Positions 12,643-53,968 of a DNA stretch of 64,000 bases are shown in pieces. The notes below the pieces were generated by a model, which saw nothing but the letters and a program-made list of their open reading frames with translations, was not told where the DNA came from and ran no database searches. The stretch spans positions 39,459 through 103,458 of the IMG/VR virus record IMGVR_UViG_3300032286_000926; one strand, written 5' to 3'. The stretch is from a virus. A program made the translations under genes and the position numbers. How positions within the stretch are numbered: position 1 is the first letter of the stretch; the number at the start of each line of letters is the position of its first letter.

Positions 12643-14631
12643 ATGTCTCTTATTAGTCAAGTTGAAGGCGATTTAACAGAATATTTTGTTACTGATTCCG
12701 CAATCATAGACCAATACGCAAAAACTGGTACTTTGTGGTCATTTGGTTATAACACCAATCGCCAATTAGGTGACAATACAACCCTAAGCAGGTCATCTCC
12801 GGTTCAAACTGTTGTGGGGGGTACTAATTGGAAATTTATTGCAAATGGTGGCCAATTTCATACGATGGCTCTCAAAACCGATGGTAGATTATGGGGTTGG
12901 GGTGATAATACTTATGGCCAAAACGGTTCTGGATCTATACTAAAACAAACCCCATCTGAAGTTGTTGGTTACACATCAAATTGGAAAACTGTTTCTTGCG
13001 GTAATTATTTTTCACAAGGTATAAAAACTGATGGAACACTATGGATATGGGGTAGAACTGCATTTGATTCTACTGATACTTTAACTTATACAACAACACC
13101 AACTCAATTGTTTTCCGGAACAAATTGGAAAGAAATTGCTTGTGGTGCATATAACGCTGGTGCCATTAAAACCGATGGAACATTATGGACTTGGGGTGAC
13201 AATCTTTATGGACAATTAGGTAGAAATTCGGCAACCACTATTGATTTATCACCAGCTCAAGTCGGAAGTGGCACCAATTGGAAACAAATTTCTTTTGGTA
13301 CAAGTTTTGCAATTGGTATAAAAACTGATGGAACAATGTGGGCGTGGGGACTTAATTCGTTATTCCAATTGGGTTTGGGTACTAACACAACTATATCGAC
13401 ACCTGTTCAAATTGGAACCGGCACAACTTGGAAACAAGTATCCTGCGGGATCGTTCATTCTGGTGCCATTAAAACCGATGGTACTTTGTGGATGTTTGGA
13501 AATGGAAGTAATGGTGCTTTAGGTGCATACTTGGGAACAACACCAACACAAACTTATCTTGGCGGCACAAACTGGAAACAAGTGGCTTGTAAATCTTATA
13601 CTACAGCTGCAATTAAAACTGATGGTACATTATGGACCTGGGGATTTAATAATGTAGGTCAGTTAGGTACGGGCAAAACATTTGATGAATATACTCCCGT
13701 TCAAACTATTGCAGGTGGTAATAATTGGAAACAAGTGTCTTGTGGAACATATTTTACAAATGCAATTCATTTTTATGATTCTGATAATTTATATCCATCA
13801 CAAAATCCGCCATATAAAGTATTATATACTTTTTCAACTAATACTGAAAATGCTTCTTTAAATATTTCAACAATTTCGGGTTATGTTGCAGGTAAAACTG
13901 AAGTTACGGTTTATGTAAATTCTGGAGTATATTTGTGGTCATCCAGCACTTCTATTGCAGGTTTAACTTTTACTGGTGCTACAACCGGCGATACTGTTGT
14001 TTTGATTAATAGAGGTTACATTATGGGTATGGGTGGTAATGGAGGAAATCTTGTTAGTGAAGGAAATTTTGCAGGTAATAACGGTGGTCCAGCAATATCT
14101 CTATGTTGCAATACCAAAATAGATAATTCTGGTGCTAGTGCATATATTGGAGGCGGTGGTGGTGGCGGCGGTTCAAGCACATCTGCAACTGGTGGTGGTG
14201 GAGCTGGCGGTGGCAATGGAGGTGGTCTTTCTGGAGGTGGAACTGGAGGTAGTATAGGATCATCGGGAACTGATGGATCACCTAGTCGTGGTGGCGGTGG
14301 CGGAAGAATATTTCCTGGTGTTGGTGGTGCCGGAGGTACTACGACAGCAGGAGACACTAATGGTAAAGGTGGCGGCGCAGGTGGTGGTGGCGGCGCCTAT
14401 GGCAGCATCGCTGGCGGCACCGGCGGTTCTGGTAATTCATTCGGCACCAGTGGTGTGTCTCCAGGACCATATGTTGGTGGAGGCGGAGGAGGTTGGGGTG
14501 CCGTTTCTGGTTGGTCTGTTGGTACTAGTGGATCGAATCCCGGTCTTGGTGGTAAAGCCGTTGCACTTAACGGATATACAGTCATTTGGCATTACGGAAA
14601 TACAGATAGAGTATATGGTAGTGTAACATGA
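12643..14631 (+). CDS. RCC1-like seven-repeat propeller with glycine-rich adhesin C-terminus
   Basis: 662 aa. Residues about 28-385 contain seven RCC1-like repeats, each built on a GTLWTWGDNxYGQLG core followed by a linker with TNWKQVS. RCC1-fold proteins are seven-bladed beta-propellers, and the repeat count here matches. Residues about 385-470 are a linker with beta-strands ending in INRGYIMGMGG. Residues about 470-645 are extremely glycine-rich, with runs of 5-8 Gly separated by Ser, Thr or Ala, like the polyglycine-II domains of phage adhesins such as gp38 of S16-type T4-like phages. It closes with GGKAVALNGYTVIW, a typical end of such domains. The likely role is a receptor-binding protein at a fibre tip. 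It is the only one of four RCC1-like genes here with the glycine domain. The stop overlaps the next ATG by 4 bp. Confidence 0.8.
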   Translation: MSLISQVEGDLTEYFVTDSAIIDQYAKTGTLWSFGYNTNRQLGDNTTLSRSSPVQTVVGGTNWKFIANGGQFHTMALKTDGRLWGWGDNTYGQNGSGSILKQTPSEVVGYTSNWKTVSCGNYFSQGIKTDGTLWIWGRTAFDSTDTLTYTTTPTQLFSGTNWKEIACGAYNAGAIKTDGTLWTWGDNLYGQLGRNSATTIDLSPAQVGSGTNWKQISFGTSFAIGIKTDGTMWAWGLNSLFQLGLGTNTTISTPVQIGTGTTWKQVSCGIVHSGAIKTDGTLWMFGNGSNGALGAYLGTTPTQTYLGGTNWKQVACKSYTTAAIKTDGTLWTWGFNNVGQLGTGKTFDEYTPVQTIAGGNNWKQVSCGTYFTNAIHFYDSDNLYPSQNPPYKVLYTFSTNTENASLNISTISGYVAGKTEVTVYVNSGVYLWSSSTSIAGLTFTGATTGDTVVLINRGYIMGMGGNGGNLVSEGNFAGNNGGPAISLCCNTKIDNSGASAYIGGGGGGGGSSTSATGGGGAGGGNGGGLSGGGTGGSIGSSGTDGSPSRGGGGGRIFPGVGGAGGTTTAGDTNGKGGGAGGGGGAYGSIAGGTGGSGNSFGTSGVSPGPYVGGGGGGWGAVSGWSVGTSGSNPGLGGKAVALNGYTVIWHYGNTDRVYGSVT

Positions 14632-15053
14632 TATACAAAATAAATAATTACAATTCTTTACCAAGTTATTACATGGTAGACCAAAATTCTTTGGAGTTAG
14701 CCAATACCATTAATCCAAATTTAAATTATGTTGTTGGTACATTTTCTGATGCTCAAAAAGCATTAGAGATACAACAACAAAATTGTTTAATGTATCAATC
14801 TGGAGCTTTTTCTATTTGTTCTAATATTGAAATTGATGATGGCGTAATGTGGAAAACTATGCGGAAAGAGGATCCAGAAAATGGTATATACCAAGTGTTT
14901 GATTGTTTTACAGGACAATATACACAATGTTCATCAAAAACAGAAGCCATTAATTTAAATGAACAAAAGAAACAACAATTTTTAATATCATGTGGTTTAG
15001 ATAAAGTTTATGAATTGAATGAAATACCACAACCAAATCAAGGAAATTTATAA
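14628..15053 (+). CDS. Hypothetical protein, fibre-locus accessory
   Basis: 141 aa, not recognised. The ATG overlaps the stop of the glycine-rich propeller gene (ATGA), which suggests coupled translation. The protein is soluble-looking and mixed alpha/beta, with six cysteines scattered without a metal-binding spacing. The segment FSDAQKALEIQQQNCLMY suggests a helix, and the C-terminus from about residue 108 is helical and polar. It is directly followed, with no gap, by the DUF4376-like gene, so the two small proteins may work together as fibre-assembly or fibre-capping factors for the propeller proteins on either side. Small chaperone genes commonly follow phage fibre genes, so that role is plausible but not shown by any motif. 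Confidence 0.6.
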   Translation: MIYKINNYNSLPSYYMVDQNSLELANTINPNLNYVVGTFSDAQKALEIQQQNCLMYQSGAFSICSNIEIDDGVMWKTMRKEDPENGIYQVFDCFTGQYTQCSSKTEAINLNEQKKQQFLISCGLDKVYELNEIPQPNQGNL

Positions 15054-15701
15054 ATGTTTGTAATCGTACATAACAATAATGTAATTTTGGGTCCAATGAA
15101 GTGGAGTAAAATTCGCTTTGAAAATGAAATTAAGGATGAATTGGATATTGATGTTATTCTTAATACACGGAATGACGAAGAATTGCCGGTAATTATTAAT
15201 GATGAATTGAAAATATTGTCAACTCAAGGCACACCAGATCCAGCGCATAATCCTAAAATAGAATTTTTACATGGTCCCTTTTGGCAATTTACTGATAGGG
15301 ATGCCATTTCATCATATCAAGTGGTACAGAAACCAGTTGAAGCTGTTCGCAATGAATTAAAAAATGTAATTGCTCAAGAACGCTGGATAAAACAAAATGC
15401 AACACTAGATATTGATATTGATGGTACAACATATCAATTTGATACTAGTGAAAAAACTAGAACTGCATTACAACAATCTCTTGTTTTGAATACATCATTA
15501 AATTGGAAACTAAACAACGGTGAATGGGTTAATTTAACTGTTGAAAATATTACAACAATTCTCTCCACGATTGCCACACATATTCAAAGTTGCTTTGATT
15601 GGGAATTTGCTAAAAATACCGAATTGTATGTTTGTTCTACTCTTGAAGAAATGGATGCTCTTGAAATTGTTACGCCTGTTGAGGTTCCAGGACTAATCTA
15701 A
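15054..15701 (+). CDS. DUF4376-like protein, probable tail-fibre accessory
   Basis: 215 aa. The C-terminal part, from about residue 105, has the layout I associate with DUF4376: a helix with VIAQERWIKQNA, a short strand segment (TYQFDTSEKTRTALQQSL), a WKLNNGEWVNLT strand pair, and the closing helix ATHIQSCFDWE. Domains of this type are found in tail-fibre and fibre-assembly proteins of many phages. The N-terminal 100 residues are mixed alpha/beta and unassigned. The gene lies between two RCC1-like propeller genes, abuts the previous gene, and shares one base with the next (TAATG), so it is likely translated with them. A role in fibre assembly or attachment is inferred from context. Confidence 0.68.
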   Translation: MFVIVHNNNVILGPMKWSKIRFENEIKDELDIDVILNTRNDEELPVIINDELKILSTQGTPDPAHNPKIEFLHGPFWQFTDRDAISSYQVVQKPVEAVRNELKNVIAQERWIKQNATLDIDIDGTTYQFDTSEKTRTALQQSLVLNTSLNWKLNNGEWVNLTVENITTILSTIATHIQSCFDWEFAKNTELYVCSTLEEMDALEIVTPVEVPGLI

Positions 15702-16909
15702 TGGGTATCACAACCAATTTTAAACTGAATGGTACTGATATAGGAAATATATTGGTAGAAAAGTCCTATATGTTGGATCGATATCCGGAACTTGCTGATA
15801 ATTTGAAACAATCTGTATTGTGGAGTGCCGGAAATAATTACTATGGCTCTTTGGGAAACAATGATGCTTCTGTAACTAGGGTTACTTCACCAACGTCAAT
15901 ATATGGTGGCGGAACAAATTGGAAATATCTTGCCAAAGGTACAGATGAAGCTAGTGGCACCTATGGTCACATGGCTGCAATTAAAACCGATGGTACACTA
16001 TGGTTATGGGGTTACAATATTAATGGCCAACTTGGTGATGGTACAACTGTTGATAAATCTTCTCCAGTTCAAATATCAGGTGGTGGCACCAACTGGGTAG
16101 GAGTAACACTTACTGATTCCTCAACTTTTGCTATAAAAACCGATGGTACATTATGGTCATGGGGCAACACCAATAATGGTCAATTGGGCATTGGAGCTGC
16201 AGGTGGAGTTAGGTCTGCACCTACTCAAATTGGCAGTTCAACAAATTGGAAACAAGTGTCTGGTGGATATGAATCTGGTTCTGCAATTAAAACCGATGGA
16301 ACTTTATGGGGATGGGGTCTTAATACCTATGGAACTTTGGGTGATGGAAATATTAATACGATAGTTTCCACACCTGTACAAACAATATTAACTGGTAACA
16401 ATTGGAAACAAGTGTCATGTGGTTTCTACTACACAATGGCAATTAAAACCGATGGAACACTATGGGGTTGGGGTGCTGGTGGCACCGGACAATTAGGTAA
16501 TGAAATTTTAGCTAATACGTCAACACCCGTTCAAATAGGTACAGCAACAACTTGGAAAATAATAGAATGTGGTCGCAACCATTCGGCCGGAATTAAAACG
16601 GATGGAACATTATGGTTGTGGGGTTCGAATACTAACGGAAAAATTGGTAATAACAGTAGTCTCACAGTATCCACTCCAGTACAAATATATGGTGCTGGAA
16701 CAAATTGGAAACAAGTTTCGTGCGGTAAAGAATCTACTGTTGCTATGAAAACTGATGGTACATTATGGGCCTGGGGTGTAATACAGCATTTTTATCCAAC
16801 AGCTACTTATGCCATTCTAACTCCTGTTCAAATTTCAGCAGACACGAATTGGAAAACTATATCCGGTATTGGTACTCGATATTATGCTATATTGGGAGAT
16901 TTAACATAA
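15701..16909 (+). CDS. RCC1-like seven-repeat propeller protein (second copy)
   Basis: 402 aa. After a unique N-terminus of about 45 residues (GITTNFKLNGTDIGN, then YMLDRYPELADNLKQ), there are seven RCC1-like repeats with the core KTDGTLWxWGxNxxGQLG and the linker TNWKQVSxG. Seven repeats predict one closed seven-bladed propeller with little else. There is no glycine-rich tail, unlike the gene at 12643. Repeats within the protein are close to one another at the residue level but use varied synonymous codons. A propeller of this kind in a fibre locus most likely presents variable loops for receptor or glycan binding. The blade loops differ between paralogues far more than the core strands do. 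The function is inferred from location and fold. Confidence 0.75.
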   Translation: MGITTNFKLNGTDIGNILVEKSYMLDRYPELADNLKQSVLWSAGNNYYGSLGNNDASVTRVTSPTSIYGGGTNWKYLAKGTDEASGTYGHMAAIKTDGTLWLWGYNINGQLGDGTTVDKSSPVQISGGGTNWVGVTLTDSSTFAIKTDGTLWSWGNTNNGQLGIGAAGGVRSAPTQIGSSTNWKQVSGGYESGSAIKTDGTLWGWGLNTYGTLGDGNINTIVSTPVQTILTGNNWKQVSCGFYYTMAIKTDGTLWGWGAGGTGQLGNEILANTSTPVQIGTATTWKIIECGRNHSAGIKTDGTLWLWGSNTNGKIGNNSSLTVSTPVQIYGAGTNWKQVSCGKESTVAMKTDGTLWAWGVIQHFYPTATYAILTPVQISADTNWKTISGIGTRYYAILGDLT

Positions 16910-16917
16910 AATAAAAC

Positions 16918-18147
16918 ATGCCAACTAATTATACCTTTGTCAATTCATCATTAACAGGAACTTCTACACCAGTTGCTTTGGATGATTACTTTATTCCAAA
17001 AGCACCGTTCACTCAAGGTGGTTTATGGGCATGGGGTAAAAATCTTTATGCTTTTGGCCAAGGCGGCCAATTAGGTGATAATACTCTCATTGATAGGTCC
17101 TCACCTGTTCAAGTTACTAATGGCGGTACCAATTGGAAACAAGTATCCGCAAATGTTTATGGTACTGCTGCCATTAAAACCAATGGAACATTATGGATGT
17201 TTGGTTATTATATAGGAATTGCAGCTAATGTAAAAACACCAGTTCAAATTGGAACCGATAATAATTGGAAACAAATATCATTTTCTGGATATAATGGTAT
17301 AACTGTTGCTGGAATTAAAACCGATGGTACACTATGGACTTGGGGTAATCAAAATAGTGTAGGTCAGTTAGGTGATGGCACCATTGTTGGTAAATCTACA
17401 CCAGTTCAAATTGGAACCAATACTAATTGGAAACAAGTATCAGCTGGTAATAGTGTAATGGCAGCTATTAAAACCGATGGAACTTTATGGACTTGGGGAC
17501 ATAACTATTACGGAGAATTAGGTAATAATACTAATCGAGAAACGGATAATGTTCTTTCAGTTTCTTCACCAATACAAATATATGGTGGTGGTACCAATTG
17601 GAAACAAGTATCTACTGCACAAGGTATTTCCACATCCGTGTTTGCTATTAAAACCGATGGTACACTTTGGTCGTGGGGAGATAATAGTAACGGTGTATTG
17701 GGTCTAAATGATGCAATACCTCTTTCAGAAACATCTCGTTCAAGTCCTGTACAGATATATGGAGGCGGTACCAATTGGAAACAAGTATCATCTGGTTGGA
17801 TGACTGCGGCGGCTATTAAAACAGATGGCACATTATGGTTATGGGGACTTAATGCCGGTTACTATTCGGGATTAGGTGTTCCAGCTTCTCGGTCATCACC
17901 TGTTCAAATTGTTGGCGGTGGTACTAATTGGAAAGAAGTATCTGTTAGTGCTGGTGGAATGTCAGCAATTAAGACTGATGGTACTCTGTGGACTTGGGGT
18001 AGTAACCTATATGGCCAATTAGGAAATAATGTTTCTGATGGTATTTCATCTTCAACACCAATACAAATATATGGTGGCAATACAAATTGGAAACAAGTTT
18101 CACACGGTACTACACATGTGGCCGCAGTTCGAACTGACTATTATTAA
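16918..18147 (+). CDS. RCC1-like seven-repeat propeller protein (third copy)
   Basis: 409 aa, with seven RCC1-like repeats from about residue 37 to the end; the second repeat has KTNGTLWMFG in place of the usual core. The first 34 residues (start MPTNYTFVNSSLTG) are identical in protein to those of the next gene. At the DNA level the two share an exact 60-bp block, while the 42 bp before it differ only at synonymous positions. This N-terminus probably docks both propellers to the same virion site. No Shine-Dalgarno sequence is obvious before the ATG; the 8-bp gap is AT-only apart from one C. Blade loops carry inserts of different length, for example near residues 200-215 and 255-265, as expected for a variable binding surface. 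Confidence 0.75.
   Translation: MPTNYTFVNSSLTGTSTPVALDDYFIPKAPFTQGGLWAWGKNLYAFGQGGQLGDNTLIDRSSPVQVTNGGTNWKQVSANVYGTAAIKTNGTLWMFGYYIGIAANVKTPVQIGTDNNWKQISFSGYNGITVAGIKTDGTLWTWGNQNSVGQLGDGTIVGKSTPVQIGTNTNWKQVSAGNSVMAAIKTDGTLWTWGHNYYGELGNNTNRETDNVLSVSSPIQIYGGGTNWKQVSTAQGISTSVFAIKTDGTLWSWGDNSNGVLGLNDAIPLSETSRSSPVQIYGGGTNWKQVSSGWMTAAAIKTDGTLWLWGLNAGYYSGLGVPASRSSPVQIVGGGTNWKEVSVSAGGMSAIKTDGTLWTWGSNLYGQLGNNVSDGISSSTPIQIYGGNTNWKQVSHGTTHVAAVRTDYY
16960..17019 (+). repeat. Exact 60-bp direct repeat, copy 1 (propeller N-terminus)
   Basis: Base-by-base comparison shows that 16960-17019 and 18204-18263 are identical over 60 bp. The block encodes the end of the shared N-terminal domain of two adjacent RCC1-like genes. 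Upstream of it the two genes differ only at silent positions, and downstream they diverge. Recombination between the copies would swap or delete a propeller while keeping the reading frame. Confidence 0.95.
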
Positions 18148-18161
18148 ATCAACTAAAGACA

Positions 18162-19301
18162 ATGCCAACTAATTACACATTTGTAAATTCATCTTTAACG
18201 GGTACTTCTACACCAGTTGCTTTGGATGATTACTTTATTCCAAAAGCACCGTTCACTCAAGGTAATTTATTTGCTTGGGGTAGTAATACTTACGGACAAT
18301 TAGGTGATAATACTACTGCAGCTAAATCATCTCCAGTCCAAACTATTGATACTGGAACAAATTGGAAACAAGTATCAGCAACTTTTGGAGAACAATCATC
18401 TTTTGGAATTAAAACCGATGGTACGTTGTGGGCATGGGGAATTAACACAAATCGTGGCTTAGGTATTGGAACTAATGTTAATCAATCTTCACCCGTTCAA
18501 ATAGGTACAGCAACAACTTGGAAACAAGTATCTGGTGATAGGGCTATTAAAACCGATGGTACGCTATGGGTTTGGGGATTTGATGGTAACGGTATTGGCG
18601 TTCCAAATATCTCCGGGGTATCAACACCAGTTCAAGTAGGTACTGAAACAAATTGGAAACAAGTTTCACGGGGGTATACTCATTCTCTAGCCGTTAAAAC
18701 CGATGGTACATTATGGTCGTGGGGTAGAAATCTTTATGGAGAATTAGGTGATGGAACATTCAGTAATTGGAATGGAGGAGCTGGACCAGGAAGTCCTGGC
18801 ACCCAATCAAAAAGCACTCCAGTTCAAGTTGTAGGTGGTGGAACAAATTGGAAAAAAGTATCTGCTGGATTTGTACACACTGCTGCAATAAAAACCGATG
18901 GAACATTATGGCATTGGGGTGAGATTGCTACCTACCAAATTAGCACTCCAGTTCAAGTTGTAGGTGGTGGAACAAATTGGAAAGAAGTTTTTTCTGGCAA
19001 TCAAATAATTTTTGCAATAAAAACCGATGGAACTTTATGGTATATAAATAATTCAATTAGTTCTCCAGTTCAAGTTGTATGGGGTGGAACAAATTGGAAA
19101 CAAGTTTCAACTGGATATCCAAGTACCACTACTGCTATTAAATCCGATGGAACATTATGGAGCTGGGGAAGTAATACTTTTGGCCAATTGGGTCTTGGTG
19201 ATACTACTTATAGAAGCACTCCTGTGCAATTAGGTATCGATACTAATTGGAAACAAGTATCAACTTCTGGTGCCCATGCGTTTGCAATTAAAGTATATTA
19301 A
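18162..19301 (+). CDS. RCC1-like seven-repeat propeller protein (fourth copy)
   Basis: 379 aa. The first 34 residues match the N-terminus of the gene at 16918. Seven repeats follow. The fifth is shortened after the core (LWHWGEIATYQ) and the sixth is reduced to LWYINNS without the usual WG pair, so two blades have partly eroded. The fourth carries a Gly/Pro-rich loop (NGGAGPGSPGTQS) near residue 210, the most obvious candidate for a variable binding loop. The gene has only a weak ribosome site before its ATG. It is the last of the propeller array, and a late-promoter motif follows it. With its sister it could be an alternative or additional receptor-binding tip. This is inference. Confidence 0.75.
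   Translation: MPTNYTFVNSSLTGTSTPVALDDYFIPKAPFTQGNLFAWGSNTYGQLGDNTTAAKSSPVQTIDTGTNWKQVSATFGEQSSFGIKTDGTLWAWGINTNRGLGIGTNVNQSSPVQIGTATTWKQVSGDRAIKTDGTLWVWGFDGNGIGVPNISGVSTPVQVGTETNWKQVSRGYTHSLAVKTDGTLWSWGRNLYGELGDGTFSNWNGGAGPGSPGTQSKSTPVQVVGGGTNWKKVSAGFVHTAAIKTDGTLWHWGEIATYQISTPVQVVGGGTNWKEVFSGNQIIFAIKTDGTLWYINNSISSPVQVVWGGTNWKQVSTGYPSTTTAIKSDGTLWSWGSNTFGQLGLGDTTYRSTPVQLGIDTNWKQVSTSGAHAFAIKVY
18204..18263 (+). repeat. Exact 60-bp direct repeat, copy 2 (propeller N-terminus)
   Basis: Identical to 16960-17019, offset by 1244 bp. Recombination between the two copies would remove exactly one propeller-length unit and fuse the shared docking segment to the other propeller. Confidence 0.95.
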
Positions 19302-47728: not shown

Positions 47729-48159
47729 TTATTATATCACCGTTTTCTAAAAAATTAAGAACAGAAGAACCAAGAGAAAACCCTAAAAACTATCCACATT
47801 GGAAAGAATTAATACCACTCATTAATGAACCAATTATTCAAGTGGGTATTGAAGGTGAAGAACAATTGGTGCCTGATTTTAGAAAGAATTTATCTTTAGA
47901 TGAACTATCAGCACTAATTAAAGAATGTCGTACATGGATTGGGGTAGATAGTTTCTTTCAACACCTCTGTTGGGACCTAAATAAACCAGGTATTGTACTA
48001 TGGGGTCAATCGGATCCTAACATTTACGGCCATCCAGAAAACACTAACCTTCTAAAAGGCAGAGAATATCTAATGGAAAACCAGTTTTTGATGTGGGAGA
48101 TGGTATCTTACAGAAAAGATTGTTTCGTTAGCCCTCAAGAGGTAATCCAGTTCTTATAA
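47725..48159 (+). CDS. GT9-like C-terminal half protein
   Basis: 144 aa. It carries the second Rossmann half of a GT-B fold: LSLDELSALIKECRTWIGVD, FFQHLCWDLNKPGIVLWGQS and DPNIYGHPENTNLL, matching the donor-binding end of heptosyltransferase-like GT9 enzymes, where a D-S-x-x-x-H region lies near the donor. The first half is missing here but a candidate is the C-terminal part of the preceding gene. The ATG overlaps that gene's stop by 4 bp, so both halves would be made together. It could be a split enzyme or a decayed remnant. It is the last gene before the neck block, and a perfect late promoter overlaps its stop. Confidence 0.7.
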   Translation: MIIISPFSKKLRTEEPRENPKNYPHWKELIPLINEPIIQVGIEGEEQLVPDFRKNLSLDELSALIKECRTWIGVDSFFQHLCWDLNKPGIVLWGQSDPNIYGHPENTNLLKGREYLMENQFLMWEMVSYRKDCFVSPQEVIQFL

Positions 48160-48162
48160 ATA
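48155..48162 (+). promoter_or_regulatory. T4-type late promoter (TATAAATA, perfect consensus)
   Basis: An exact TATAAATA overlaps the stop of the glycosyltransferase gene and lies 36 bp before the gp13 ATG. It is the first promoter of the neck, packaging and head block and would be read by a gp55-type sigma factor. Transcription should start near 48168. Confidence 0.82.
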
Positions 48163-49154: not shown

Positions 49155-50042
49155 GTGTCAACTAATTTCTATTTTAATAATTTTCCTGCCAATCAAGTAA
49201 CATCTGAACAACTCCTTATTGAGGATTTGGTTATAGAGTCCATGCAAATTAACGGCATGGACATTTTCTATATGCCTCGTCAAACAGGTGATAGTGTTGA
49301 TTATCTGTATGGTGAAGATACCGCAAAAAAATATACTCAAGCATTTCCACTTGAAATGTACCTTGAGAATGTTACTGGTATGGATGGTGAACAAGATTTT
49401 ATATCCAAGTTTGGTCTTGAAATTCGGGACGAAGTAAAGTTTCTTGTTGCTCGCCGTAGATTTAAAGCCACCGTTGGTCAACTTAGACCTAATGAAGGCG
49501 ATTTAATTTATGTTCCATTGGTGCAAAATTTCTTTGAAATTACTTTTGTTGAACATGAAAATGACCAAGCAATGTTTTATACATTAGGCCGTGGTCGTGG
49601 TGGTAATGTATATGTGTTTGCTTTAAAATTAAAACAATATGTATTCTCCAACGAAGTTATTGAAACTGGTATTCCACAAATAGATGAACAAATAAGAGAA
49701 GCTTATCCAAGAACACGACTTAGTTTAGATGATAATGTCGAAGGTAAGTTCTTAAATGATGAAATTGTTTATCAAGGTACAGACTTGGCCAATGCAACCG
49801 CACAGGCTGTTGTTTATGATTTTACACCAGACACCAAAGTTGTTGTATACCGTACACAAGGTGTATTCACAACAGGTTTATTAAAAGGTGCATCATCAAA
49901 TACCGAAGCACAAATACTTGTTGCAAATGATACGGTTGAAATGGACAATGCATTTGAAGATATTATAGATAATAACCGTATTCAAGAAGAAGGTCTAAGT
50001 GTAATTGACTGGACAGAAAAAAACCCATTTGGTGAAACTTAA
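49155..50042 (+). CDS. gp14: Neck protein gp14
   Basis: 295 aa (T4 gp14 is 256), with a GTG start 2 bp after the gp13 stop. Features of gp14: ANQVTSEQLLIEDLVIESM near the N-terminus, GMDIFYMPRQTGDSVDYLYG, YLENVTGMDGEQDFISKFG, then RPNEGDLIYVPLVQNFFEI and FVEHENDQAMFYTLG. It works with gp13 to form the neck that seals the filled head and accepts the tail. The C-terminus, from about residue 205, is a strand-rich extension with EGKFLNDEIVYQGTDL. The stop shares one base with the next ATG (TAATG). Confidence 0.9.
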   Translation: MSTNFYFNNFPANQVTSEQLLIEDLVIESMQINGMDIFYMPRQTGDSVDYLYGEDTAKKYTQAFPLEMYLENVTGMDGEQDFISKFGLEIRDEVKFLVARRRFKATVGQLRPNEGDLIYVPLVQNFFEITFVEHENDQAMFYTLGRGRGGNVYVFALKLKQYVFSNEVIETGIPQIDEQIREAYPRTRLSLDDNVEGKFLNDEIVYQGTDLANATAQAVVYDFTPDTKVVVYRTQGVFTTGLLKGASSNTEAQILVANDTVEMDNAFEDIIDNNRIQEEGLSVIDWTEKNPFGET

Positions 50043-51418
50043 TGCTATCTAATCCACATTTTTATAATCGTACCATTCGCAAAATTGTTGTTGCATTTGG
50101 GTCAATGTTTAATGACATTGAGGTTGTTCGTTTTCTTAAAGACGGTACACCAACAGAAAGATTCAAAGTTCCTTTGTCGTATGGAGCCAAAGAAAAATAC
50201 ATAACTCGTATTACATCGGATCCATCACTCACCAAATCTATTGCTACTGTTGTCCCTAGAATATCATTTAATCTTGAAGGTTTAAGTTATGATGCTTCTA
50301 GAAAACAAGTAACCACATTAAAAAATTTTGGTAACGGTGGTGGTACATTTTCATCTCAATATGCACCTGTACCATATGATTTTAATTTTACCATGTCTTT
50401 GTATGTTCGTAATACAGAAGATGGTACACAAATTCTAGAACAAATATTACCGTTTTTTACACCAGATTTTACTGTAACTATTGATTTTATTCCATCAATG
50501 AATCAAAAATATGACATGCCTGTTATATTAAATTCAGTAAGTTCTAGTGTAGATTATGAAGGTGATATGATGTCCACTAGATTAATTTTGTGGGACTTAG
50601 ATTTTACTGCAAAAGGATATATTTGGCCTGCCGTTAGGTCCGATTCAACTAATGGTAAAATTATTCGTTATGTAAATACAAATTTATATAATATGGCCAA
50701 TACAAAATTGGTAAACATATTAACAACACCGGATCCAATTGATGCTAATGTGGATGATGAGTACGGATTTAATGAAGAGATTACTGAATATTTTGAAGGT
50801 AAAGACAATATAGTTGTAAATCCAAATCCATTACCAGGTGATGGTGCTTTCTTGTACGACACTCCAAATCCAATGACACTAGGTCTTTTAGGAACACCAT
50901 TTACTGCCAATAGTAATCCAAATATTACAACTTCAGCATTAACATTAGGTTTAAGTCGTAAAAAATATAAAGGTTATTATGAAGAAAATCCAAATTATTT
51001 TGATAGTAAAACACCTATTGATATTAAAAATGATAATATTTTAAGTTTTAATTATAGTGATATGGATGATAACTTTAGTATGACTTGGACTGGTTACTTC
51101 AAACCAGAAACAACAGGCAATTACAATTTCTGGTTGGTATCAGATAATTCAAACTACTTGTGGATTGGTGATACCGCATTGAATGGTTATACTAATCAAA
51201 ACGCATTTGTTAATAATGGTACAGACCACAGTAATGAGTGGAATAATAATGTGAATTCTGTTACACTACAGGCCAATAAATATTACCCAATTAGAATACA
51301 TTTTGGTGATAGAACTGGATATGAAACCATGCAGGTGTTTTATGCATTAACAGGCCAAAGAGGTACAAGAAATTTCACCAATAAACTATATTACAATTCA
51401 ATAACTAATGGTTTTTAA
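50042..51418 (+). CDS. gp15: Tail completion/sheath stabiliser gp15 fused to a PA14-like domain
   Basis: 458 aa, much longer than T4 gp15 (272). Residues 1-215 match gp15: FYNRTIRKIVVAFGSMFNDI, RFKVPLSYGAKEKYITRI, PRISFNLEGLSYDASRK and GDMMSTRLILWDLDFTAKG. gp15 caps the tail tube and sheath and binds the neck. Residues 216-330 are a linker with YGFNEEITEYFEG. Residues about 330-450 read as a PA14-type domain: SMTWTGYFKPETTGNYNFWL, then SDNSNYLWIGD, and KYYPIRIHFGDRTGYETMQV. PA14 domains often bind carbohydrate. The fusion would place a glycan-binding module at the head-tail joint. The frame is continuous. Confidence 0.85.
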   Translation: MLSNPHFYNRTIRKIVVAFGSMFNDIEVVRFLKDGTPTERFKVPLSYGAKEKYITRITSDPSLTKSIATVVPRISFNLEGLSYDASRKQVTTLKNFGNGGGTFSSQYAPVPYDFNFTMSLYVRNTEDGTQILEQILPFFTPDFTVTIDFIPSMNQKYDMPVILNSVSSSVDYEGDMMSTRLILWDLDFTAKGYIWPAVRSDSTNGKIIRYVNTNLYNMANTKLVNILTTPDPIDANVDDEYGFNEEITEYFEGKDNIVVNPNPLPGDGAFLYDTPNPMTLGLLGTPFTANSNPNITTSALTLGLSRKKYKGYYEENPNYFDSKTPIDIKNDNILSFNYSDMDDNFSMTWTGYFKPETTGNYNFWLVSDNSNYLWIGDTALNGYTNQNAFVNNGTDHSNEWNNNVNSVTLQANKYYPIRIHFGDRTGYETMQVFYALTGQRGTRNFTNKLYYNSITNGF

Positions 51419-51832
51419 ATGAAAAAAATTAATGAAAAGTTATCTGAGATACTTGATGTTGAACCAATTACCATAGAACAACCAGTTGTTAAATCAAATG
51501 AAATAATTGAAATAACAACACCAAATAATGTTGTTGAAACTGATGCTGATTATGCTAGAAACAACATCAAAAGTCTTATAGATAAAGGTGCAGGTGCTAT
51601 CGAAGAACTTGCCGTAGTTGCAAGAGATTCGCAACACCCACGAGCATATGAAGTTATGGCCGGTATGTTAAAAAATCTTACCGACATGAATAAAGATTTA
51701 CTAGAAATACAAAAACGCAAACAAGATTTAACTGGTGTAAAAGAATCCGGTTCAAAAGATGTTAATATTGATAAGGCTGTTTTTGTAGGTTCTACCGCAG
51801 AATTAATGAAGTTACTTAAATCGGAAAAATAA
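51419..51832 (+). CDS. gp16: Terminase small subunit gp16
   Basis: 137 aa (T4 gp16 is 164). Residues 40-110 carry the gp16 core: ADYARNNIKSLIDKGAGAIE, ELAVVARDSQHPRAYEVMAG and MLKNLTDMNKDLLEIQKRK, a helical hairpin that forms the ring-shaped small terminase. gp16 recognises concatemeric DNA and stimulates gp17. The ATG directly follows the gp15 stop. The Dps-like gene is inserted between it and gp17, while in T4 gene 17 follows gene 16 directly. Confidence 0.88.
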   Translation: MKKINEKLSEILDVEPITIEQPVVKSNEIIEITTPNNVVETDADYARNNIKSLIDKGAGAIEELAVVARDSQHPRAYEVMAGMLKNLTDMNKDLLEIQKRKQDLTGVKESGSKDVNIDKAVFVGSTAELMKLLKSEK

Positions 51833-51833
51833 T

Positions 51834-52268
51834 ATGGAACAACTCATTCAACAATTAAAAGTAATTTTAGGTACAAACTTTGCTTTGTATTTGAAGGCAC
51901 ACAATTTTCATTGGAATATTGAAGGTTCCAATTTTCCACAATATCATAATTTTTTAGATGGTCTTTATAATTCTATTTGGGAACAGAATGATGATATTGC
52001 GGAACACATTCGTCAACTAGATTCTTATGCACCAGGTTCTTTTAGTAGATTCTTGGAGTTGTCGGCAATTGAAGAAGAGTTGAATATACCACAAGCATTA
52101 GAAATGATGAGTATTCTTAAAAACGATAACGACAAATTTATCATTCAATTACGTGCCGGTATTGTTGTTGCTGAACAAGCCAATGAACCAGCTGTTGGTA
52201 ACTTTTTACAAGACCTATTAGCTGCTCATCAAAAACACGCATGGATGTTACGCAGTATTATTAAATAA
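51834..52268 (+). CDS. Dps/ferritin-like iron-binding protein
   Basis: 144 aa. The helix pair LKAHNFHWNIEGSNFPQYHN and NSIWEQNDDIAEHIRQLD is a Dps signature. The di-iron ferroxidase residues of E. coli Dps (H51, H63, D67, D78, E82) are all present at the same spacing: His26, His38, Asp42, Asp53 and Glu57. Dps proteins form 12-subunit shells that store iron and use up hydrogen peroxide; many also bind DNA through a Lys-rich N-terminal tail, which is absent here. The gene sits with 1-bp contacts between gp16 and gp17 (TAATG at its end), so it is made with the packaging motor late in infection. It might protect DNA from oxidative damage during packaging; this is inference. Confidence 0.9.
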   Translation: MEQLIQQLKVILGTNFALYLKAHNFHWNIEGSNFPQYHNFLDGLYNSIWEQNDDIAEHIRQLDSYAPGSFSRFLELSAIEEELNIPQALEMMSILKNDNDKFIIQLRAGIVVAEQANEPAVGNFLQDLLAAHQKHAWMLRSIIK

Positions 52269-53968
52269 TGGCTGAAAATTCTTTTAGTGGTAATCCCAAT
52301 CTCAAAAAGATTGGTATCAATATATCATTTACGGAAGAACAAATTCTGGAGTACCAGAAATGTTCTAAGGATCCCGTTTATTTTATTGATAACTACTGTT
52401 ACATTATTACTCTTGACCATGGTATTCAACCATTCAAACTCTATGATTGTCAAAAAGAAAAGATAAAAGTAATCCATGAGAACCGCAAGGTCATTCTTAT
52501 GGAAGGTCGTCAGCAAGGTAAGACACAAAGTTCTGTAGCCTATATTCTTTGGTACACATTGTTTCAAGAGGCAAAGAATGTGGCTATTCTTGCAAACAAA
52601 GAAACGGCTGCTCGTGAGGCCATGTCTCGTTACCAGATGATGTATGAAAACTTACCAATCTGGATGCAACAAGGTGTCAAAGTATGGAACAAAGGTGACA
52701 TTGAACTAGAAAACGGTTCAAAGGTATTTACATCAGCAACTACCGCATCTGGTATTCGTGGTAAGTCTGTAAACATGTTGTACATTGACGAGGCTGCAAT
52801 TATTCCAAATAATATTGCAGAGGCTTTCTTCACATCTGTATATCCAGTTATTTCTGCCGGTGTAACAACAAAGATTCTAATCACATCTACACCACTTGGT
52901 TATAACCATTTTTGGAAGTTTTGGAATGATGCCGAAAATAAACGAAATGACTTTGTGCCTTTACAGATTCCTTATTGGAGAATACCTGGTAGAGACGAGA
53001 AGTGGGCAGACGAACAGAAAAGGCTTCTAGGTGAACTAAAGTACAATCAGGAAGTTCTCTGTACATTCTTAGGTTCAGCTTTGACACTCATACGTGGTGA
53101 TATCATCGGTCAACTGTCCTACGATGATCCAATACTTTCTGACAATGGTTTGGACTTGTATCAGTATCCAATCCAAGGAGAACGGAACGAACACGGTCTA
53201 ATTACCTCAAAACCGCATGTCTATGTAATTGTTGCCGATACGGCCAAAGGTGTTGGTGGAGACTATTCGGCATTTGTAATTATGGATGTTACCACAGTAC
53301 CATATCGTATGGTTGGTAAGTATCGTAATAATACAATCGCACCGATGCTCTATCCATCCGTTATACATAAGCTGGCAAAGCAATATAATAATGCTTATAT
53401 CTTGACTGAGGTTAACTCCTCAGAACAGGTTGCACATATTCTATACAATGATTATGAATATGAGAATATTCTGTTTGTCCACAGAGATACCAAAGGACAA
53501 AGAATTACAGGTGGTTTTGCTGGTGCTGGCAAGACCCAACTCGGTGTAAATACCGATAAACGAGTAAAAAGAATTGGTTGTTTTAACTTTAAGTCTTTGG
53601 TGGAAGAGAAGAAATTACTCATACCAGATGCTGATGTTATTTCAGAAATATCAACCTTTATTGAAAAAAGAAACTCATATGAGGCCGATGAGGGTTACCA
53701 TGATGACTTAGTAATGGGTCTGGTACTGTTTTCTTGGTTGGTAACTAATCCATATTTCAAAGAGATTACCGATGTTAATCTCCGAGAAGCAATATACCAG
53801 AATAAAATTAAACAAATTGAAGAAGAAATGTTGCCGTTAGGGTTCATAAATGATGGGCAACATGATGAAGTTTACTTAGAGAGTGGAGACCTTTGGGGTA
53901 AAAAAGATGACAATGAATCATCTCGATTACCAGCTGGTTACATGTCCTCTAACTTATGGAAATACTAA
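52268..53968 (+). CDS. gp17: Terminase large subunit gp17
   Basis: 566 aa (T4 gp17 is 610). ATPase domain: Walker A GRQQGKT at residues 80-86, Walker B MLYIDEA with Asp174-Glu175, followed by the coupling motif ITSTPLGYNHFW. Nuclease domain: VADTAKGVGGDYSAFVIMD around Asp324, then LTEVNSSEQVAHILYND and DDLVMGLVLFSW, giving the acidic RNase H-like cluster. It cuts concatemers and pumps DNA into the prohead through the gp20 portal. The gene overlaps the Dps-like gene by one base. No insertion, intein or frameshift is seen. Confidence 0.95.
   Translation: MAENSFSGNPNLKKIGINISFTEEQILEYQKCSKDPVYFIDNYCYIITLDHGIQPFKLYDCQKEKIKVIHENRKVILMEGRQQGKTQSSVAYILWYTLFQEAKNVAILANKETAAREAMSRYQMMYENLPIWMQQGVKVWNKGDIELENGSKVFTSATTASGIRGKSVNMLYIDEAAIIPNNIAEAFFTSVYPVISAGVTTKILITSTPLGYNHFWKFWNDAENKRNDFVPLQIPYWRIPGRDEKWADEQKRLLGELKYNQEVLCTFLGSALTLIRGDIIGQLSYDDPILSDNGLDLYQYPIQGERNEHGLITSKPHVYVIVADTAKGVGGDYSAFVIMDVTTVPYRMVGKYRNNTIAPMLYPSVIHKLAKQYNNAYILTEVNSSEQVAHILYNDYEYENILFVHRDTKGQRITGGFAGAGKTQLGVNTDKRVKRIGCFNFKSLVEEKKLLIPDADVISEISTFIEKRNSYEADEGYHDDLVMGLVLFSWLVTNPYFKEITDVNLREAIYQNKIKQIEEEMLPLGFINDGQHDEVYLESGDLWGKKDDNESSRLPAGYMSSNLWKY

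Follow-up and report, generated by a model that had tools for sequence, protein, structure and literature searches.

A Dps mini-ferritin gene between the two terminase genes of T4-like phages

The late gene block and the dps gene

The window, meaning the whole 64,000-nucleotide stretch of DNA analysed here, comprises bases 39459-103458 of a viral contig record of 103,458 bases. A gene for a Dps mini-ferritin, in bacteria a shell protein that oxidises iron and defends the cell against peroxide, was identified between the genes of the small and the large terminase subunit, in the following surroundings.

48155..48162, plus strand: TATAAATA, T4-type late promoter motif, 36 nt 5′ of the first gene of the block (48199)
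49155..50042, plus strand: neck protein of the gp14 type, whose matches in phage records are annotated neck protein or head closure Hc2; query of the Dps-independent census
50042..51418, plus strand: gp15 tail sheath stabiliser (PF16724, 2.9e-66) with a C-terminal PA14/GLEYA domain (PF10528; PF07691, 3e-18), adjoining terS upstream
51419..51832, plus strand: terS (gp16), small terminase subunit (PF11053 DNA_Packaging, 2e-09; phrog_445, 1.6e-33)
51823..51825, plus strand: GGA, weak 3-base Shine-Dalgarno core of dps within the 3′ end of terS, from sequence
51834..52268, plus strand: dps, 144-aa Dps mini-ferritin of type I, from Pfam, PHROGs, PDB sequence and fold searches, AlphaFold and ligand conservation
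52266..52270, plus strand: TAATG, the dps stop and terL start overlapping by one base; probable coupling site, from sequence and counts in related loci
52268..53968, plus strand: terL (gp17), T4-type large terminase subunit (Terminase_6N/6C: PF03237, 6e-17, and PF17289, 2e-13; phrog_5989, 7e-60)

The dps reading frame is intact and encodes 144 amino acids between an ATG start and a TAA stop. A single base separates it from the end of terS, and its last base is the first base of terL. The original prediction of an intact Dps gene between the terminase genes was borne out by the open reading frame, by the Pfam, PHROG and PDB matches and by the profile matches of terS and terL, and the coordinates confirmed both the overlap with gp17 and the one-base distance to gp16. 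On the 3′ side of terL are genes in the sheath and tube positions, followed by the gp20 portal gene. Judged by sequence, the genes follow the order of the T4 late block 13-20, into which dps is inserted between 16 and 17. The extra domain of gp15 covers residues 315-432 and is of a carbohydrate-binding type; the C-terminal part of this protein is variable among relatives.

The late promoter motif was not found within 90 nt of terS, dps or terL, and its placement ahead of the block fits late co-transcription of dps with the block. The abundance of TATAAATA was rejected as an argument for a late promoter, since the window contains the motif 6 times against 10 expected, and only its placement stands out.

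Shine-Dalgarno sites were scored as matches of at least 4 bases in unique loci, with random ATGs as the baseline. Such a site preceded dps in 65% and terL in 2% of the unique loci, compared with 13% for random ATGs, and inspection of the sequence upstream of the window terL found none. The lack of a ribosome site together with the stop-start overlap points to ribosomes finishing dps as the main translators of terL, and translation of terL is probably coupled to that of dps. Because terL mostly lacks a site in phages without dps too, dps appears to have stepped into an older coupling. The predicted co-translation with the packaging motor holds in so far as terL probably depends on translation of dps, but dps usually has a ribosome site of its own. 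The median dN/dS was lowest for terL (0.07) and highest for terS (0.29), with dps (0.17) similar to two neck genes (0.19 and 0.22). These values are rough owing to saturation; by this measure dps is under purifying selection.

The Dps protein and its iron site

The window Dps matched PF00210 Ferritin (8.8e-24, 84.5 bits, cut-off 24.5) and phrog_3636 'DNA binding protein' (1.2e-35), and the NCBIfam Dps equivalogs matched with scores under their narrower cut-offs. Among PDB entries, 66 distinct sequences were matched at E<=0.01, nearly all of them Dps or Dps-based constructs. The best was Dps PA0962 of P. aeruginosa (8ff9; 3.5e-25, 34% identity), and the next solved relatives were the Dps of Bacillus, Treponema, Helicobacter and Staphylococcus. 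An AlphaFold single-chain model (pLDDT 92.4) contained helices at 2-28, 34-61, 70-76, 88-115 and 119-143, corresponding to the Dps four-helix bundle with its short loop helix, and Foldseek aligned the model to 8ff9 with a TM of 0.95. Membership in an unrelated ferritin-like family, which the original prediction had named as the finding that would count against it, was ruled out by the Pfam, PHROGs, PDB and fold searches; in the PDB and fold searches and in the tree the protein groups with Dps. Recent capture from a host was likewise rejected, the best cellular relatives being 41% identical and the phage sequences clustering separately, in a tree with long branches and an unsure root.

No basic tail is present in the window Dps, whose N-terminus reads MEQLIQQL and whose C-terminus is helix 5 with K144; the predicted loss of the Lys-rich DNA-binding tail is hereby confirmed from the protein ends. 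Such a tail occurs in some members only and is not defining for all Dps. The protein is acidic (pI 5.1), and all family members are bare Dps domains of 144-147 aa with no visible targeting extension.

Residues H26, W27, H38, D53 and E57 were invariant in 107 distinct family sequences. The two histidines, D53 and E57 align ungapped, with an offset of 11, with H37, H49, D64 and E68 of PA0962, which are its iron ligands, the equivalent of position 42 not being listed as one (PMC10002758). The invariance of these four residues in the phage family indicates that the iron site is under selection, and the fourfold ligand set, placed for a site between subunits, is retained across the family. We infer ferroxidase activity for the phage Dps.

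The match to E. coli Dps is also ungapped (query 20-70 to chain 45-95, offset 25), and the fifth acid near the iron site of that protein is D67. The five ligands predicted from E. coli Dps (H26, H38, D42, D53 and E57) are all found in the window protein with the E. coli spacing. At the level of the family, however, the prediction stands for the four invariant residues and not for D42: position 42 was D in 27 of the 107 distinct sequences, N (42 sequences) and G (31) being commoner and K (3), E (2) and A (2) rare. Among 36 cellular relatives it varied as well, with E in 26 and M in 10. Since this position is an acid in many Dps and here mostly N or G, the kinetics may differ. A dead ferroxidase, considered on account of the frequent loss of D42, was ruled out by the invariance of H26, H38, D53 and E57, whose PA0962 counterparts bind iron. 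Where position 42 is N, D is frequent at position 39 (HDFLN versus HSFLDG), the two positions being three residues apart on one helix.

Conservation and exchange at the terS-terL junction

The window Dps matched 51 phage records, and the first query of viral contigs returned at least 188 stretches with relatives, with dps at other loci too; the view of the original prediction that Dps is unusual in phages was overstated. In the 80 Dps-picked contigs kept, terS lay before dps and terL after it wherever the contig extended far enough. As a control for selection bias, contigs were also searched with the neck protein, encoded two genes 5′ of terS, and with TerL. The neck protein picked 77 new contigs, 49 of them with both terminase genes, and dps was situated between these in 46. 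Five further neck-picked contigs ended after terS-dps and before terL, and one tallied as lacking TerL (L114) had terS-dps-terL on its next stretch. In L133, L147 and L152 terS and terL overlapped directly with no dps between them. New TerL-picked contigs with both genes contained dps in 25 cases and lacked it in 20. All but one of these 20 were more distant (terS 36-46% identical), the nearer exception being L163 (terS 62% and terL 74% identical). Divergent Dps queries gave 55 more terS-dps-terL loci, partly on contigs seen before. The spacing of terS and dps was mostly 0-9 nt, and the commonest dps-terL junction was the one-base overlap.

The gp16-dps-gp17 order, which had been proposed as a search of viral metagenomes, is accordingly widespread in both Dps-picked and neck-picked contigs. 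A chance reading frame or an assembly artefact is ruled out by the approximately 80 contigs sharing the order and by the Dps-independent census. Dps is not a required part of the T4-type terminase module, as terS and terL are joined directly in L133, L147, L152 and L163. The close relatives without Dps in this position are mostly fragments, and Dps could be located elsewhere in them.

The Dps of the slot falls into two deep types, type I at 144 loci, the window included, and type II at 12. In the tree, type II is near the non-slot Dps of two other genomes (G006 and G007), on long branches. When the slot was scored as type I, type II or none on a neck-protein tree of 99 sequences, 8 changes were needed, and the well-supported branches of this tree forced at least 4 changes for type I and at least 3 for type II. 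The TerL types changed as well, 5 times. One locus, L083, was 94% identical to the window in terL, 81% in terS and 78% in the neck gene, but only 49% in dps, which is of type II. The repeated state changes and the mismatch at L083 indicate that the place is inherited and the gene within it replaced; a few lineages have lost dps. It is our guess that nearby homing endonucleases drive this replacement: one locus (L143) has an HNH gene between terS and dps (PF13392, 1.4e-11), and another (L056) has a gene with a NUMOD3 motif 3′ of dps (PF07460, 2.3e-06), very similar to a gene in L150. In two loci terL itself, as we read the open reading frames, seems to be interrupted by an intein-like insert that comes with an endonuclease-like gene. 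An SNase-family gene (PF00565, 4.5e-10) occupied the slot in L192, L193 and L196. These features are located as follows.

L064 6440-8611: intein-like insert in terL
L077 1646-4167: intein-like insert in terL
L192 1185-1613: SNase-family nuclease of 142 aa filling the terS-terL slot, T4-like phage
L196 4569-4997: SNase-family nuclease of 142 aa filling the terS-terL slot, T4-like phage

The contig of L196 (G006) combines SNase in the slot with a Dps beside regA in the replication operon, and in G007 (L202) the non-slot Dps is beside a cytidyltransferase gene. That phages without slot Dps can have it at another locus is what would be expected of an enzyme with a task in the cell, less so of a motor component.

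Elsewhere, in L323 (4559-4999), dps immediately follows regA; the T4-like replication operon there reads gp45-gp44-gp62-regA-dps, with hsp20 and gp43 further on. In an unrelated phage type, L464 (938-3435; also L468, L469 and L476), dps is located two genes 3′ of a different TerL (PHROG 2, 8e-25). An independent link of Dps with packaging in such phages was set aside, as only these 4 near-identical loci were found. In other viral contigs (L446-L481, for example L455 3445-3744) dps is often near a small Lys-rich gene (phrog_4689 and others).

Proposed role and relation to known Dps systems

We favour, with moderate confidence and taken as a whole, an account in which a functional Dps has become a fixed component of the late packaging operon of a single T4-like clade and acts most likely as a late-made, peroxide-using ferroxidase guarding DNA and cell during assembly. 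Dps would be produced late, on the transcript that also carries the neck genes, while long replicated DNA is cut and packaged; its own ribosome site would give a good yield of Dps, and terL would be read mainly by ribosomes finishing dps. By homology, the protein is expected to assemble into a 12-mer shell, to oxidise Fe(II) with H2O2 in the manner of PA0962 and to store the iron. With iron locked up, Fenton chemistry would be kept from breaking the replicated DNA or killing the cell during head filling. Dps would in this account act through its chemistry and not as a component of the motor. The oxidant that PA0962 itself uses on Fe(II) is H2O2 and not O2, and this protein shields cells from H2O2 (PMC10002758). 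The ferroxidase account gives no reason for the terS-terL slot over other late places.

An alternative is that Dps is not mainly a ferroxidase but acts directly on phage DNA or on the packaging motor, whether as a shell that cleaves DNA with the help of metal or guards its ends, or by partnering TerS or TerL. The location of dps between two motor genes and the probable coupling of terL point this way, as does PA0962, which is also tail-less and as a 12-mer cleaves plasmid DNA in vitro with divalent metals (PMC10002758), and so do the sister phages that keep an SNase nuclease in the slot. The genome with SNase in the slot and Dps elsewhere, however, implies that neither substitutes for the other, terS and terL are intact in relatives without slot Dps, Dps types about 49% identical accompany near-identical TerL at L083, and the protein is acidic and without a basic tail. 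A direct role on DNA or motor is for us distinctly improbable, and its more specific form, a shell cleaving or guarding DNA at the motor with the terL coupling setting the ratio of motor to Dps, is more doubtful still. Least probable of all is a Dps packed into or onto the virion, where it would shield the genome between hosts or as it enters the cell; a late structural operon, a small shell and a good ribosome site would suit it, but the members show only the bare domain, and the terminases encoded in this operon are not known to belong to the mature T4 virion.

It is also conceivable, and in our view rather unlikely, that the terS-terL junction is a tolerant cargo slot in which Dps is an auxiliary gene spread by recombination and the location is meaningless. 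The junction does hold SNase, F5/8-type and HNH genes, a NUMOD3-type gene beside dps, or nothing; the two Dps types swap, as at L083, and phage Dps is found at many other loci. Against this, Dps occupies the slot in nearly every case within the clade, and dps is under purifying selection and has retained a ribosome site while terL has none. A cargo slot is compatible with the ferroxidase function and denies only that the location matters.

Phage Dps as such is not new, considering the 51 matching records and the published cases, which include gut 'Gratiaviridae' with 36 other gut phages (PMC8008677) and Lactobacillus phages (PMC6669764). Dps was also found in the Salmonella 7-11 group, in Synechococcus S-SRM01 and S-EIV1 and in Streptomyces phages. 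Like the window Dps, these are phage-borne and thought to counter iron and peroxide; they are 25-33% identical to it where compared by search, but in the phage records inspected their genes adjoin nucleotide-metabolism or host-like genes and not terminase. PA0962 (PDB 8ff9; PMC10002758) shares the fold, the four iron ligands and the absence of basic tails with the window Dps, which differs in being encoded by a phage gene in a packaging operon and in belonging to a family with mostly N or G at position 42. The T4-type late block 13-20 of cyanophages and of the Methylophilales phage Melnitz has the same gene order, with TerL and portal about 50% identical to those of the window; the Melnitz block is without Dps and has an F5/8-type gene between terS and terL. 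Naming a host from these nearest cultured relatives was rejected, about 50% identity being too distant.

For the terS-dps-terL arrangement, no description was found in the open-access literature, to which the search was confined, and the fixed place between terS and terL, kept even when the Dps gene is swapped, does not seem to have been reported before. In phage genomes, auxiliary genes usually keep no fixed position. This stress-protection gene stays in a late operon that is among the most conserved, with alleles swapped at the same site and with terL apparently drawing on its ribosomes. If the proposed role is true, two questions can be put to the test: whether phage yield is limited by oxidative damage in the course of assembly, and whether Dps contacts phage DNA or the packaging motor. 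Related phages with dps of type I, dps of type II, SNase or an empty slot offer a natural comparison.

Repeat-like stretches were seen in two other places. In L112 (8015-12885), a repeat frame of 1623 aa (SFDIANSAAAYSNTV-like) is located between gp15 and terS and runs off the locus, a position which is empty in most relatives. At 12643-19301 of the window, adjacent open reading frames (662, 402, 409 and 379 aa) have stretches like LWSFGYNTNRQLGDNTTLSRSSPVQT in common, which resemble RCC1-type repeats, and the frames are possibly tail-fibre or adhesin genes.
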